Below are positions 5,039-12,135 of a stretch of DNA of 64,000 nt, piece by piece (position 1 is the stretch's first letter; every line of letters begins with the position of its first letter). Origin of the DNA: Novosphingobium sp. (GTDB taxonomy: Bacteria > Pseudomonadota > Alphaproteobacteria > Sphingomonadales > Sphingomonadaceae). Position numbers and translations under genes: made by a program. The notes below the pieces were generated by a model, which was not told where the DNA came from, made no database searches, and was given only the letters and a program-made list of their open reading frames with translations. The stretch is taken from positions 62,001 through 126,000 of the forward strand of contig NZ_JAUYRV010000040.1 in assembly GCF_030696665.1 (NCBI RefSeq), written 5' to 3'.

Positions 5039-6079
5039 TCAGCCCGTATGGCAGCAGGCGATCAGGGCCTCGCCAAGATCGCCAAGCCCCAGTTCCTTGT
5101 CAGCCGCTTCCATGTCCATTGCAGCGTTTGGCGCTTCGGCCACCATTGCGGTCTTGCGATCCTGCACGAAGGTTTTGCACCCGGCATCGCGCATCAGGCG
5201 CAGGCCCTTGGCACCATCGCGGCCCATGCCGGTCAGCACAGCGCCAGCCGCCGGGATCGCACCGCGCGCGATTGATCCGAACAGCAGGTTGGCCGCAGGG
5301 CGCACGCCGTCCACCGGATCGCGGTCGATCAGGCGCAGCTTGGCAGGTGTGCCCGGTTCAATCACCGCGTGACGCTCAGGGTCATAGGCGATGTGGATTG
5401 TGCCCGGCACAAGCGGCGTGGCATCCTTGGCGGCCTTTACCGCGCATTTCAGCTCGCCATCCATGCGTTTGATGAATGTTTCAACCACCGCCGGCTCGGC
5501 ATTGAGCGTGATGATTGTGGGCGGGCACTTTTCGGGAAAATCGCCGAGGATCTGCGTCAGCGCATCGATCCCGCCCATCGATGCGGTGATCGCAAGGATG
5601 TGGCCGTTCCATTCGAAGTTCGTTTCTGCCACCTTGGCAACCCTGGTGGTGTCACGCGGGGCGCGCCGGTCCTTGACGTTGCTGTTGGCCGCCGCCAGCA
5701 CGATCTTGCCCAACTGGCCCACGGTCTTGGCAAACTGTTCGGGCGTGGCCTTCAAAGGTTTGGGGAAGCATTCCACCGCGCCCAGCTCATAGGCCTTGAG
5801 CGAAGTTTCAGTGCCCGCCTGCGTAAGGCTGGAGAGCATGACCACCGGAATCGGGTTCGATCCCATCAGCTCTTCCAGGAATTCGATCCCGCTCATCCCC
5901 GGCATTTCCACGTCGAGCGTGACCACGTTGGGGCGCAGTTCCTTGATCTGCTCTCGGGCGTCGTTGGCACTGGACGCCGCACCGACAACCGTCACGTTCT
6001 TTGCCTGATCGAGAATATCGGCAAACAGCGCCCGCATAGCGGCGGAATCATCGACAACGAGTACGCGAGCATCATGCAT
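5039..6079 (-). CDS. cheB: CheB-like chemotaxis response regulator with degenerate methylesterase domain
   Basis: Receiver domain (VLVVDDSAAMR, VVTLDVEMPGMSG) and CheB-like C-terminal domain (TGMGRDG), but the QH motif is replaced (ITLNAEP). Confidence 0.85.
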   Translation of the reverse strand: MHDARVLVVDDSAAMRALFADILDQAKNVTVVGAASSANDAREQIKELRPNVVTLDVEMPGMSGIEFLEELMGSNPIPVVMLSSLTQAGTETSLKAYELGAVECFPKPLKATPEQFAKTVGQLGKIVLAAANSNVKDRRAPRDTTRVAKVAETNFEWNGHILAITASMGGIDALTQILGDFPEKCPPTIITLNAEPAVVETFIKRMDGELKCAVKAAKDATPLVPGTIHIAYDPERHAVIEPGTPAKLRLIDRDPVDGVRPAANLLFGSIARGAIPAAGAVLTGMGRDGAKGLRLMRDAGCKTFVQDRKTAMVAEAPNAAMDMEAADKELGLGDLGEALIACCHTG

Positions 6080-6300: not shown

Positions 6301-6573
6301 ATGTCGTCGGTCACGCCATCGATCACTTTGCCCGCGCGCTGCGATCGCGCCGCAGCCGAAGCGCTGCTGCCTGAAATGATTGCAGCACTCGGCTCCGGCC
6401 CGCTGCGGATCGATGCGCGCGAGTGCCAGCACATCGGCCAGGCCATGCTCCAGTTGCTCGTCAGCGCCCGCCAAACCGGTGAAGGCGCGGTGATCGAGCC
6501 TTCGCAGACATTGCGCGACGTGGCCCAGCTCACCGGGCTTGGCGAGGAACTCTTTTCAGGGATTCACGCATGA
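6301..6573 (+). CDS. STAS-domain protein in chemotaxis operon
   Basis: 90 aa STAS-like fold sequence; ATGA overlap with cheA. Confidence 0.75.
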   Translation: MSSVTPSITLPARCDRAAAEALLPEMIAALGSGPLRIDARECQHIGQAMLQLLVSARQTGEGAVIEPSQTLRDVAQLTGLGEELFSGIHA

Positions 6574-8789
6574 CCGCCGAAGAAATCCAGGCCATCTTCT
6601 TTGCCGAGTGCGAGGAGTCGCTCGAAGCCGCAGAGCAAGGCCTTGCGGCCTGCCGCGATGGCACGCAGGACAGCGATACCGTCAACGCGGTGTTTCGGGC
6701 AGTCCATTCGATCAAGGGCGGCGCGGGCGCGTTCGGCTATATCGCGCTGCAGGGCTTCACCCATACTTTCGAAACACTGCTTTCGGATGTGCGCGATGGC
6801 ACCGTGCCGATTACCGAACCGCTGATCGACCTGATGCTCGGCGGGCTTGATACACTGAGCGACCACGTTACCGCTGCGCGCGATAGTGGTGAGCCGCCAG
6901 AGGATGCCGCGCTGCAGGCGGAAATGACCGCTGCGATGGCGGCCAATGCGGGTGCAGCACCAGCAGCGCCAGTTGCTGCCGCTCCCCCCCCTCCTGCGCC
7001 CGCCCCTGAACCTGAAAAGGCCGAAGTGGCTGACAGTTCGGGCGACGATTTCGACTTCGACTTTGATCTCGACGCCCTGCTGGATGACATTTCGGATGAC
7101 ATGGCCCCGGCTGCTGTTGCCCCCGAAGCCCGCTGGCAAGTTCGCGTGCGGCCCCATGCTGCGGCGATGCGCAATGGCAGTGAACCGCTGCTGATGCTGC
7201 GCGAAATGAGCGAACTGGGCGGCGTTTGCGAACTGTGTGACATATCCTCGATCCCGCCCCTCGACGGCTTTGATGTCGGTACGGGGTATCTTGGCTGGGC
7301 ATTCAGCTTCCCCGCCAGCGTGGGCGAAGATGCGGTTCGCGACATCTTCGATTTCGTCGGTGACGACTGCTCTTTGGCCTTTGGTGCCCAAGCAGACATG
7401 CCGCAGGTGCAATATCCTGAACCGCCGGTACCAATTGCACCAGTGGCAACCGCACCCATTGCAGTTCCTGTTGCCGCGCCCGTGGCGGCGATGGTGCAGT
7501 CTCCTGCCTCCGCCGTTCCGGCGCCCGTCGAAGCGCCGCTTGCCCCGGACCCCGAATTGGCGCGCACGGGTTCGGCACCGCCAGCACCGCCTGCACCCGG
7601 CCAGTCAATCCGCATTGAACTGGGCAAGCTCGACAAGCTGATCGACGCTGTGGGCGAACTCGTTATCGCGCAGGCCATGATGGCACAGCGGCTGGCCGAT
7701 CAGGGCCTCGCTGTGGCCGAAGACATGACAATGATCGAAGGGCTGACCCGCGACATCCAGGAATCGGCCATGGCGATCCGCGCCCAGCCGATCGGCTCGG
7801 TGTTCAGCCGCGTGCCACGCATCCTGCGTGAACTTGCATCTTCCACCGGCAAGCACGTGAAGCTCGAAGTGTCGGGCGAGACGACCGAACTGGACAAGAC
7901 TGTCATCGAGCGTCTGGGCGAGCCGTTGACTCACCTGATCCGCAATGCGGTAGATCACGGCATCGAACAGGCGGACGAACGCATCGCTGCCGGAAAGCCC
8001 GCCGAGGGCACGCTGACGCTTTCGGCAGAGCACCGGTCTGGCCGCATCCTCATCCGCATTGGCGATGACGGCAAGGGCATCGACCGCGAACGCGTGTTTG
8101 CCAAGGCGGTCGAAAAAGGCCTGATCTCGCCCGATACGGTGATGAGCAAGGAGGAGATCGACCTGCTGATCTTCGCACCGGGCTTTTCTACCGCGCAGAC
8201 CGTGACGAATGTGTCCGGTCGCGGCGTGGGCATGGATGTAGTCCGCCAGAACGTGAAGGATCTGGGCGGGCGCATCACCATCGATTCCGAACCCGGCAAG
8301 GGCACCACATTCACGCTTACCCTGCCGCTGACGCTGGCCATTTCCGATGGTATGGTCGTCAACGTGGGTGACCAGACACTGGTCGTGCCGCTTGCCAATG
8401 TGGTGGAAAGCCTGCGCCCCGAACCCAACGAAGTTCAGGGCCTTGGTGCCAGCCGCTGCATGATAAACGTGCGCGGACGGTTCATTCCGGTGATCCCGCT
8501 CAGCCAGTCCGTAGGAGCAGCCGGTGCCTGCACCGACCCGCGCGATGGCGTGCTGATCGTGGTCGAAACCGAGGGCGCAGGCCGCGCCGCACTGCTGGTC
8601 GATGCGATCTGCGATCAACGCCAGGTCGTCATCAAAAGCCTCGACACGCATTACCGCTCGGTCGAGGGCGTGGCGGGTGCTACCATCCTTGGTGATGGCC
8701 GTGTCGCGCTGATTGTCGATGTCGACAGCCTCGTCTCGCGCAGCCTCGCGTCTGCGGGCGGCAATTCTCCGCTGGCAGAAGCCGCATGA
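6570..8789 (+). CDS. cheA: Chemotaxis histidine kinase CheA
   Basis: HPt motif AVHSIKGGAGAFGY, N-box LTHLIRNAVDHGIE, GDDGKGID, CheW-like C-terminus. Confidence 0.97.
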   Translation: MTAEEIQAIFFAECEESLEAAEQGLAACRDGTQDSDTVNAVFRAVHSIKGGAGAFGYIALQGFTHTFETLLSDVRDGTVPITEPLIDLMLGGLDTLSDHVTAARDSGEPPEDAALQAEMTAAMAANAGAAPAAPVAAAPPPPAPAPEPEKAEVADSSGDDFDFDFDLDALLDDISDDMAPAAVAPEARWQVRVRPHAAAMRNGSEPLLMLREMSELGGVCELCDISSIPPLDGFDVGTGYLGWAFSFPASVGEDAVRDIFDFVGDDCSLAFGAQADMPQVQYPEPPVPIAPVATAPIAVPVAAPVAAMVQSPASAVPAPVEAPLAPDPELARTGSAPPAPPAPGQSIRIELGKLDKLIDAVGELVIAQAMMAQRLADQGLAVAEDMTMIEGLTRDIQESAMAIRAQPIGSVFSRVPRILRELASSTGKHVKLEVSGETTELDKTVIERLGEPLTHLIRNAVDHGIEQADERIAAGKPAEGTLTLSAEHRSGRILIRIGDDGKGIDRERVFAKAVEKGLISPDTVMSKEEIDLLIFAPGFSTAQTVTNVSGRGVGMDVVRQNVKDLGGRITIDSEPGKGTTFTLTLPLTLAISDGMVVNVGDQTLVVPLANVVESLRPEPNEVQGLGASRCMINVRGRFIPVIPLSQSVGAAGACTDPRDGVLIVVETEGAGRAALLVDAICDQRQVVIKSLDTHYRSVEGVAGATILGDGRVALIVDVDSLVSRSLASAGGNSPLAEAA

Positions 8790-9655
8790 GCCTGATGGAC
8801 GCCCTTGATGCGTCGATGCCCGGGGTCAGCCCCGGCGTGTTCGACGAGGCAGACTTCCGCGCGATTTCGGAAATCACGCACAAGGAAGCCGGCATCGTCC
8901 TGTCCAGCGGAAAGGCCATGCTGGTCTATTCACGCCTCGCCCCACTGGTGCGCAACGCCAATTGCGCGACATTCGGTGCCTATGTCATCCGCATTCGTGA
9001 AGACGCGACTGAGCGCACCAAGGCGATCTGCGCACTGACGACTAACCACACCTTCTTCTACCGCGAAGCCCACCACTTTGAACACTTCGCCCGCGAAGTG
9101 CGCCCAGGCTATGTCCAGCGGCTGCAAAGCGGCGGCAAAGTGCGTCTGTGGTCGGCAGGCTGCTCCAGCGGTGAGGAAACGTGGTCCTTGCTGATGACGT
9201 TTCTGGGCGAAGACGCTTCCGCTGGCGCAAACATCGCCAAGCGCGATCTGCGTCTGCTGGCCAGCGACATTGCCACGCACGCCATCGCCAAGGCCCGCGC
9301 AGGCACCTACCGCACCGAGGATCTGAAGCCCGTACCCGATGGCTTGCGCCGCCACTGGACGCGCAGCACCGGCGAGGAATCGACCATCGCGCCCGAAGTG
9401 CAGCAACTTGCCCGCTTCCGGTCGCTCAACCTGCTGGGTGATTGGCCGATGCAGGGGCAGTTTGACACGATCTTCTGCCGCAACGTGATGATCTATTTCG
9501 ATAATCCCACCAAGGAACGGCTCGTGCATCGTTTTGCCGAGAAGCTCGCCCCCGGCGGCTGGCTTTACATCGGTCATTCCGAACGCGTGACCGGTCCGGC
9601 GCTCGATCTGCTGTCGACCCAGGGTCCAACCATCTACCGCAAGAGGGCCGCATGA
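8786..9655 (+). CDS. cheR: Chemotaxis protein methyltransferase CheR
   Basis: RLWSAGCSSGEETWSLLM and FDTIFCRNVMIYF motifs; ATGA overlap with cheA. Confidence 0.96.
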   Translation: MSLMDALDASMPGVSPGVFDEADFRAISEITHKEAGIVLSSGKAMLVYSRLAPLVRNANCATFGAYVIRIREDATERTKAICALTTNHTFFYREAHHFEHFAREVRPGYVQRLQSGGKVRLWSAGCSSGEETWSLLMTFLGEDASAGANIAKRDLRLLASDIATHAIAKARAGTYRTEDLKPVPDGLRRHWTRSTGEESTIAPEVQQLARFRSLNLLGDWPMQGQFDTIFCRNVMIYFDNPTKERLVHRFAEKLAPGGWLYIGHSERVTGPALDLLSTQGPTIYRKRAA

Positions 9656-10686
9656 CCATCCGCGTCGTTATCGTTGAAGATTCTCCCACCATGCGCGCCA
9701 TCCTGATGAACCGGCTGGGCAAGGAGCCGGACATCGAAGTTGTGGCCGCCGCCGCCAACGCCGCTGAAGGCCGCGAAGTGATCCGCGAGCTGGACCCGGA
9801 CGTCGTCACGCTCGACATCGAAATGCCCGGCATGAACGGCCTCGATTTCCTCGCCAAGATCATGCAACTGCGCCCGACCCCGGTGATCATCGTCTCCGGC
9901 TCCACGCAGAAAGGCAACGACATGAGCGCCCGTGCGCTCGCTCTCGGTGCGGTTGATTGCTACGCCAAGTCAGGCGGCGGCATGGGTCTCGACGATGCCG
10001 GAATGCTGGCACAGATGATCCGCGAGGCCGCCAAGGTCCGCTTCTCACCCCGCGCACCCGCCGCAGCACCCTCAACCATCACCCGCATAGCCGCCGAAGT
10101 GCGCGGCACGCTGGCCGATCGCCCCGCGCTGATCGCCATTGGCTCGTCCACCGGCGGCGTGGAGGCACTGCAGACGGTGCTTTCCGGCTTTCCTGCCGAT
10201 TGCCCGCCCACCCTGATCGTGCAGCACATCAACGCCCGCTTCGCGCCTGCCGTCGCACGCACGCTCGACCAGTCGTGCCCGCCCAGGATCATGATTGCCG
10301 AACCCGACATGCCGCTTCGGGATGGCCACGTCTATCTCGCGCCCGGCGATGATCGGCACCTCTCCATTGGCGGCAGCAGCACCTTCCACTGCAAGCTGCG
10401 CAGCGGCGAACCGGTCTCCGGCCACATGCCCAGCGTCGATGTGCTGTTCGCTTCGGTCGCCGAGATCATCGGTCCCCGTGCAGTCGGCATCCTGCTGACC
10501 GGGATGGGCGCTGATGGCGCACAAGGCCTGCTCTCGATGGCCCAGAAAGGCGCGCGTACCATTGCGCAGGACGAGGCGACCTGCACCGTCTTCGGCATGC
10601 CCCGCGCTGCAATCAACCTTGGTGCCGCGCGCATCGTCGCGCCTTTGGGTTCCATCGCCCGCCACGCCTTCAGCAAGGCGGCGTAA
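9652..10686 (+). CDS. cheB: Protein-glutamate methylesterase CheB (catalytic residues intact)
   Basis: Receiver plus IGSSTGGVEAL, LIVQHINARF and LTGMGADGAQG. Confidence 0.96.
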   Translation: MTIRVVIVEDSPTMRAILMNRLGKEPDIEVVAAAANAAEGREVIRELDPDVVTLDIEMPGMNGLDFLAKIMQLRPTPVIIVSGSTQKGNDMSARALALGAVDCYAKSGGGMGLDDAGMLAQMIREAAKVRFSPRAPAAAPSTITRIAAEVRGTLADRPALIAIGSSTGGVEALQTVLSGFPADCPPTLIVQHINARFAPAVARTLDQSCPPRIMIAEPDMPLRDGHVYLAPGDDRHLSIGGSSTFHCKLRSGEPVSGHMPSVDVLFASVAEIIGPRAVGILLTGMGADGAQGLLSMAQKGARTIAQDEATCTVFGMPRAAINLGAARIVAPLGSIARHAFSKAA

Positions 10687-10687
10687 G

Positions 10688-11257
10688 ATGAGCTTCGAAT
10701 CCCCCATCCCCCCAAATCCATCGGGCGCACCGCCGCTTGAACGGGTCACCGTCATGCAAGGGCAGGCCCTTGCCAGCGCCAACGCATCAATCGAATACTC
10801 CACCGTGCTCGGATCGTGCGTGGCCACGTGCCTGTTCGATCCGCAAAGCAAGGTCGGCGGCATGAACCATTTCCTGCTGTCAGAACCCCCCGCCAATCTG
10901 CCCGGCACACAAGTGGACGAACACTACGGCGTCTATCTGATGGAGCTTCTGGTCAACCAGATGCTCAGCCGTGGTGCCCGCAAAAGCAACCTCAAGGCCC
11001 ACCTTTATGGCGGGGCGAACGTCAATCGCAACATGATGAAGATTGGCACGATGAACGCCGAATTCGCCCGCGAATTCCTCCGCCGCGAAGGCATTGCCCT
11101 GATGCGCGAGGATTTGGGTGGCACCAGCGCGCGCCGTGTCGATTTCCGCCCCGCGTCGGGCCAGGTCCGCCTGCGCACGGTAGAAGACCGTTTTGCACCA
11201 CCCGTCCAACCCACCCTGCGCCCGGCCTTGTCCACTGGCGACGTCGAACTGTTCTGA
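10688..11257 (+). CDS. cheD: Chemoreceptor glutamine deamidase CheD
   Basis: TVLGSCVATCLFDPQSKVGGMNHFLL motif typical of CheD; start chosen at ATG 10688, directly after cheB. Confidence 0.93.
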   Translation: MSFESPIPPNPSGAPPLERVTVMQGQALASANASIEYSTVLGSCVATCLFDPQSKVGGMNHFLLSEPPANLPGTQVDEHYGVYLMELLVNQMLSRGARKSNLKAHLYGGANVNRNMMKIGTMNAEFAREFLRREGIALMREDLGGTSARRVDFRPASGQVRLRTVEDRFAPPVQPTLRPALSTGDVELF

Positions 11258-11278: not shown

Positions 11279-11653
11279 ATGACTACAACCACAACCCGGA
11301 TCCTTACCGTAGACGACAGCCCATCCATGCGGGCGCTGCTCAATCACGCCCTGTCGGGCCACGGCTTCGATGTGTCGCAGGCCGAAGACGGCATGGCTGC
11401 GCTCGATTGGCTGGCGATGAACGAGGTCGATGTCGTCATCACCGATATCAACATGCCGCGCCTCGATGGCTTCGGCCTGATCGAACGCCTGCGCGAAGGC
11501 AGCCGCCATCGTGACCGCCCGATCCTCGTGCTGACAACCGAAAGCTCGGACGAGAAGAAGGCCCGCGCCCGCGCCGCCGGTGCCACCGGCTGGATCGTCA
11601 AACCGTTCGACCCCGAAAAGCTCGTCGCCGCGGTCCGCCGGGTTGCCCACTAA
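11279..11653 (+). CDS. cheY: Chemotaxis response regulator CheY
   Basis: 124 aa single receiver domain (ILTVDDSPSMR, VVITDINMPRLDG, WIVKPFDPEKL). Confidence 0.93.
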   Translation: MTTTTTRILTVDDSPSMRALLNHALSGHGFDVSQAEDGMAALDWLAMNEVDVVITDINMPRLDGFGLIERLREGSRHRDRPILVLTTESSDEKKARARAAGATGWIVKPFDPEKLVAAVRRVAH

Positions 11654-11691: not shown

Positions 11692-12135
11692 ATGCTGCGC
11701 GAACTGATCACCTTCGAAGTCGAAGGCCAGGTTTTCGGCCTCGATATCATGGCCATCCGCGAAATCCGCGCATGGTCCCCCACCACGCGCCTGCCGCGCG
11801 TGCCCTCCTATGTCGCAGGCGTCGTCAACTTGCGCGGCACCGTGCTGCCGGTGATCGATCTGGGCGCACGCCTCGGCTGGCGCGAGACCGAGGCCACCCC
11901 GCGCCACGCCATCATCGTGACGCAGCAGGGCCAGCAGATCTCCGGCTGGATCGTCGATGCGGTGAGCGACATCGTCACGCTCGACAGCGAAACCCTGCAG
12001 CCCCCGCCGCCCACTTCGGCAGGCGATACGGTGGTGCCGTTCCTCGAAGGCCTTGCCGCGATTGACGACAAGATGGTCATGGTCCTGAACCTTGCCGCGC
12101 TGTCAGACGCCGTCGTGGTGCCCGAAGCCGCCTGA
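11692..12135 (+). CDS. cheW: Chemotaxis coupling protein CheW
   Basis: ELITFEVEGQVFGLDIMAIREIR...VNLRGTVLPVIDL. Confidence 0.95.
   Translation: MLRELITFEVEGQVFGLDIMAIREIRAWSPTTRLPRVPSYVAGVVNLRGTVLPVIDLGARLGWRETEATPRHAIIVTQQGQQISGWIVDAVSDIVTLDSETLQPPPPTSAGDTVVPFLEGLAAIDDKMVMVLNLAALSDAVVVPEAA

Follow-up and report, generated by a model that had tools for sequence, protein, structure and literature searches.

The textbook chemotaxis enzyme CheB is a protein-glutamate methylesterase/glutaminase. A sequence-only reading of the window (the whole 64,000-nucleotide stretch of DNA analyzed here) had pointed to two CheB-type proteins, one of which, referred to here as psCheB, appeared to have lost its catalytic histidine. 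Can psCheB still be an enzyme and, if not, what is it kept for? Its open reading frame starts with ATG, is intact, and encodes a full-length CheB paralogue in which Pfam detects a receiver (residues 6-111, E = 1.4e-22) and a CheB_methylest domain (residues 163-338, E = 2.5e-38). psCheB and the second CheB are the only two PF01339 genes in the genome.

Table 1. Features of the window that bear on psCheB
Feature	Position	Strand	Basis
psCheB (receiver + pseudo-methylesterase, 346 aa)	5039..6079	-	ORF, Pfam, structure alignment, AlphaFold2
psCheB Asp288 codon (= Salmonella CheB Asp286), kept	5216..5218	-	alignment
psCheB Asn193 codon AAT, at the catalytic His190 slot	5501..5503	-	alignment + model
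psCheB Ser167 codon (= Salmonella CheB Ser164, nucleophile), kept	5579..5581	-	alignment
psCheB receiver domain (residues 4-111), every phosphorylation-pocket residue present	5747..6070	-	domain search + conservation
psCheB phospho-acceptor Asp56 codon	5912..5914	-	alignment
cheA (Hpt, dimerisation, HATPase, CheW domains), presumed psCheB kinase	6570..8789	+	domain search
cheR methyltransferase	8786..9655	+	domain search
Intact cheB, Ser166-His192-Asp288	9652..10686	+	Pfam, alignment
cheD	10688..11257	+	domain search
cheY	11279..11653	+	domain search
cheW	11692..12135	+	domain search
Small DxxxQ protein, CheT-like, 84 aa	12294..12548	+	profile search; homologue directly after psCheB in operon genera

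We aligned psCheB with the solved CheB structures from Salmonella (1a2o) and Pectobacterium (6ymz) using HMMER. The segment LNAEP of psCheB falls exactly on QHMPP, which places Asn193 at the position of Salmonella His190, and D56, S167, and D288 align with D56, S164, and D286. psCheB is therefore like these enzymes in its two-domain fold, its receiver pocket, and its Ser and Asp positions, but has Asn for the catalytic His and lacks T165, which is replaced by Met, and the FGMP loop. The alignment bears out what had been read from the sequence: the missing His, the retained receiver Asp, Ser, and Asp, the eroded blocks (SVDVLF to AANLLF and FGMPR to AEAPN), and a complete triad in the second CheB.

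The AlphaFold2 model of psCheB (mean pLDDT 90, pTM 0.88) superposed on full-length CheB 1a2o with a TM score of 0.90 at 2.5 Å. In this model, N193 lies at the end of strand 188-193, before a helix, in the place of His190. The H192 residue of the intact CheB comes after strand 187-191 in a model that is of lower confidence, and low in parts. No substitute catalytic His was seen in the alignment or in the AlphaFold2 model of psCheB. H237 was rejected as a replacement: psCheB and the intact CheB conserve it to the same degree, and Salmonella CheB has it as well.

Orthologues of psCheB were gathered from Novosphingobium and other Sphingomonadaceae genera, and a complete Ser-His-Asp triad was found in 0 of about 109 sequences. 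The 69 distinct sequences comprise the states SQD (27), SND (11), SPD (6), DHD (6), GAD (5), SRD (4), and other broken forms, with no SHD, and the triad is broken in all 40 additional Novosphingobium copies. Sequencing error and chance are excluded as causes of the His loss, because these 40 copies, which come from other genomes, also lack it. Asn is only one of the residues found at the slot, which across the clade holds N, Q, P, R, G, A, D, T, or E; no new conserved His was found in the clade. His190 is gone in most psCheBs and Ser164 is also gone in several lineages, while one branch has Asp for Ser and mostly retains His (D-H-D).

A tree computed with the catalytic columns left out separates all 40 psCheB representatives from all 46 intact CheBs by a single branch (SH-aLRT 100). 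Within the psCheB clade the losses differ: in one branch Ser went and His was mostly retained, in the others His went, so disabling changes probably arose more than once. The triad is intact in 45 representative CheBs of Sphingomonadaceae and in all 38 top-scoring CheBs from other families of the order and class; no broken CheB was found outside Sphingomonadaceae among these top matches, a set that could miss more diverged ones. Collectively, these comparisons strongly support a clade-wide loss of the methylesterase site. psCheB is present in 103/196 Novosphingobium genomes, nearly always with a second CheB-type match, and all 17 genomes checked contain one or more CheB-type genes besides it. 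Descriptions of an inactive CheB paralogue family or of sphingomonad CheB pairs were not found in the open-access literature. Three Novosphingobium genomes (G853, G839, and G846) carry two psCheB copies each, 63% and 73% identical to that of the window, and the second copies (L185-L187) also lack the His.

With a receiver bearing the phospho-acceptor Asp and a CheB_methylest fold, psCheB looks like a CheB, but its triad is broken. Scored against NCBIfam NF001965 (CheB, cut-off 293), the psCheB of the window falls below the cut-off (274.1 bits) and one from another genus above it (329.9 bits). Because some psCheBs pass, annotation may assign to a genome a methylesterase that is unable to work, and adaptation models drawn from gene counts would be wrong where psCheB is counted as one.

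The receiver residues D10, D11, D56, S83, K107, and P108 and the S-x-x-M-R motif are invariant in 40/40 psCheB representatives, leaving intact the phosphorylation pocket expected of a phosphate sink. In CheB, for comparison, D10 is found in 36/45 and P108 in 23/45. Of the receiver positions conserved in CheB, psCheB keeps 31/39 and newly conserves 18 others; in the effector it keeps 16/61 and gains 4, with T165 and the FGMP loop among the losses. Pairwise dN/dS within Novosphingobium is 0.085 for the psCheB receiver and 0.246 for its effector, compared with 0.128 and 0.187 for CheB. These values show that purifying selection acts on psCheB. Together with the conservation data, they mark the receiver as its most guarded part, and they indicate that the effector, probably no longer an enzyme and eroded at CheB-conserved sites, is yet not free to drift. 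The receiver of the intact Novosphingobium CheB is less canonical than that of psCheB: the Pro that follows the conserved Lys is gone, and the copy in the window has ED in place of DD.

In most genera, psCheB is the last gene of a single-strand cluster, cheA-cheR-cheB-cheD-cheY-cheW-psCheB, and a small ORF of about 83-121 aa begins within a few bases after it. Novosphingobium differs: psCheB has moved next to cheA, where it sits between that gene and fliS on the opposite strand, and the small gene has remained after cheW. No match to a sigma-54-type promoter pattern was found upstream of psCheB. A profile of the small ORF matches a homologue at practically every sphingomonad che locus, including the window's own after cheW, which has no Pfam or NCBIfam match. 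The pattern Q-x-x-D-x-x-x-Q occurs in 79/79 distinct sequences. According to PMC12654446, which cites Agbekudzi et al. 2024, DxxxQ is the phosphatase motif of Sinorhizobium meliloti CheT, a protein that binds CheR and removes the phosphoryl group from one CheY. CheT and the product of the small ORF are both small che-operon proteins with this motif, the likeness being one of motif, size, and operon place. CheZ was not found in 17/17 genomes searched, and the CheT-like protein is a candidate CheY phosphatase where CheZ is missing.

The two genes also occur together elsewhere. Four genomes of genus code g33 (G116, G222, G176, and G259) carry psCheB together with the CheT-like gene but lack the cheA-R-B-D-Y-W operon, having only another che system. 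The earlier view of psCheB as working alongside an intact CheB was thus too narrow, and its closest gene partner is the CheT-like gene. In genus code g26, which has 2.1 Mb genomes, the pair follows genes for a protoglobin receptor and for a CheA-like protein in which Hpt was not matched, and no CheY or CheB is beside psCheB. In G025 this module (L091:6094-11090) is away from the main che operon (L081), in which a CheT-like gene was not found. Sphingomonas immobilis has a reading frame (L063:8890-9756) in which a psCheB-type receiver runs straight into a CheT-like DxxxQ domain; the pseudo-esterase is missing, and there are no che genes in the 18 kb around it. No further receiver-CheT fusion was found in 401 Sphingomonadaceae genomes searched, and this single case may be what a deletion left behind in a genome that is losing chemotaxis.

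We consider it fairly probable that psCheB, a CheB paralogue, is catalytically dead and has been retained as a response regulator that would compete for phosphoryl groups or docking with CheY and CheB. The reading is based on the loss of His190 without a substitute, broken triads in about 109/109 sequences beside intact CheBs, a single clade with invariant phosphorylation-pocket residues and low dN/dS, and a che co-operonic gene with a CheT-like neighbor and no CheZ found. In this reading, psCheB would have been born by one duplication in Sphingomonadaceae and then retained. Drawing on what is established for CheB and response regulators, CheA would phosphorylate Asp56, and phosphorylation would shift the receiver away from the dead effector, as happens in CheB. 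psCheB would take off no methyl groups; its rivalry with CheY and CheB, over phosphoryl groups and over docking sites on CheA or receptors, would instead tune signal termination and adaptation. Judging from the genomic link in most genera, the CheT-like protein may dephosphorylate psCheB or act with it.

The role of phosphate sink or docking regulator put forward in the sequence-only reading fits the evidence as far as sequence comparison goes, because the receiver is under the strongest constraint, CheZ was not found, and the effector appears dead but folded. S. meliloti, an alphaproteobacterium without CheZ, likewise has an additional CheA-type receiver, the phosphate sink CheY1 (PMC8429497). 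However, CheY1 is a lone receiver, whereas psCheB retains a CheB-type domain and its sink role is only proposed. A pure sink would need no effector, yet that of psCheB stays constrained, and a likely phosphatase in the same cluster would lessen the need for a sink.

A more specific possibility, which we regard as tentative, is that psCheB and the CheT-like protein form a dedicated phosphate drain replacing CheZ, in which CheA phosphoryl groups would pass to psCheB and be hydrolyzed by the DxxxQ protein. This is suggested by the adjacency of the two genes in operon genera, by their staying together without the main operon and, in g26, apart from it, and by the L063 fusion of receiver and DxxxQ domain, itself perhaps a relic.

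The g33 and g26 arrangements also bear on a rather unlikely alternative, that phosphorylated psCheB serves mainly as an output regulator, with its receiver or its dead effector binding a target other than a receptor, such as the flagellar motor or another pathway. An intact psCheB kept without the che operon, or placed with a receptor and CheA-like protein but no CheY or CheB, would suit such a role, and Rhodobacter sphaeroides CheY6, the main motor-binding CheY, resembles a CheB receiver (PMC2829493). However, most genera have psCheB in an ordinary che operon that already holds CheY, and the orphan genomes possess another che system whose CheA could serve psCheB. It is very improbable that psCheB still acts as a methylesterase or deamidase through a rearranged active site: the fold is unchanged and Novosphingobium psCheB retains the Ser164 and Asp286 equivalents, but the His slot varies across the clade, several lineages lack Ser, one branch is D-H-D, T165 and the FGMP loop are lost too, and no new His is conserved. 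A decaying duplicate without function, which the eroded effector might suggest, is hardly credible and already contradicted by the selection data, given a frame that is still open in about 100 Novosphingobium genomes and a receiver with low dN/dS that is more conserved than that of CheB.

On the preferred reading of psCheB as a dead regulator, Sphingomonadaceae seem to have made a regulator out of CheB, with the active site broken in more than one way and the receiver tightened. psCheB is a natural test case for what the receiver and fold of CheB do once catalysis is gone, and bears on how alphaproteobacteria without CheZ end their signals.

At one locus (G038, L099:12133-16207), the CheB receiver lacks part of the acidic pair and the Lys (VENSS, CARDM), unlike the psCheB of the same genome, which keeps its pocket. 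A division of labor was rejected as the explanation since cheA and cheR also have split reading frames there, and a decaying operon or poor assembly is more likely. Elsewhere in the window's genome, a 657-aa open frame contains three CheW-like domains (G000:C40:25743-27176).
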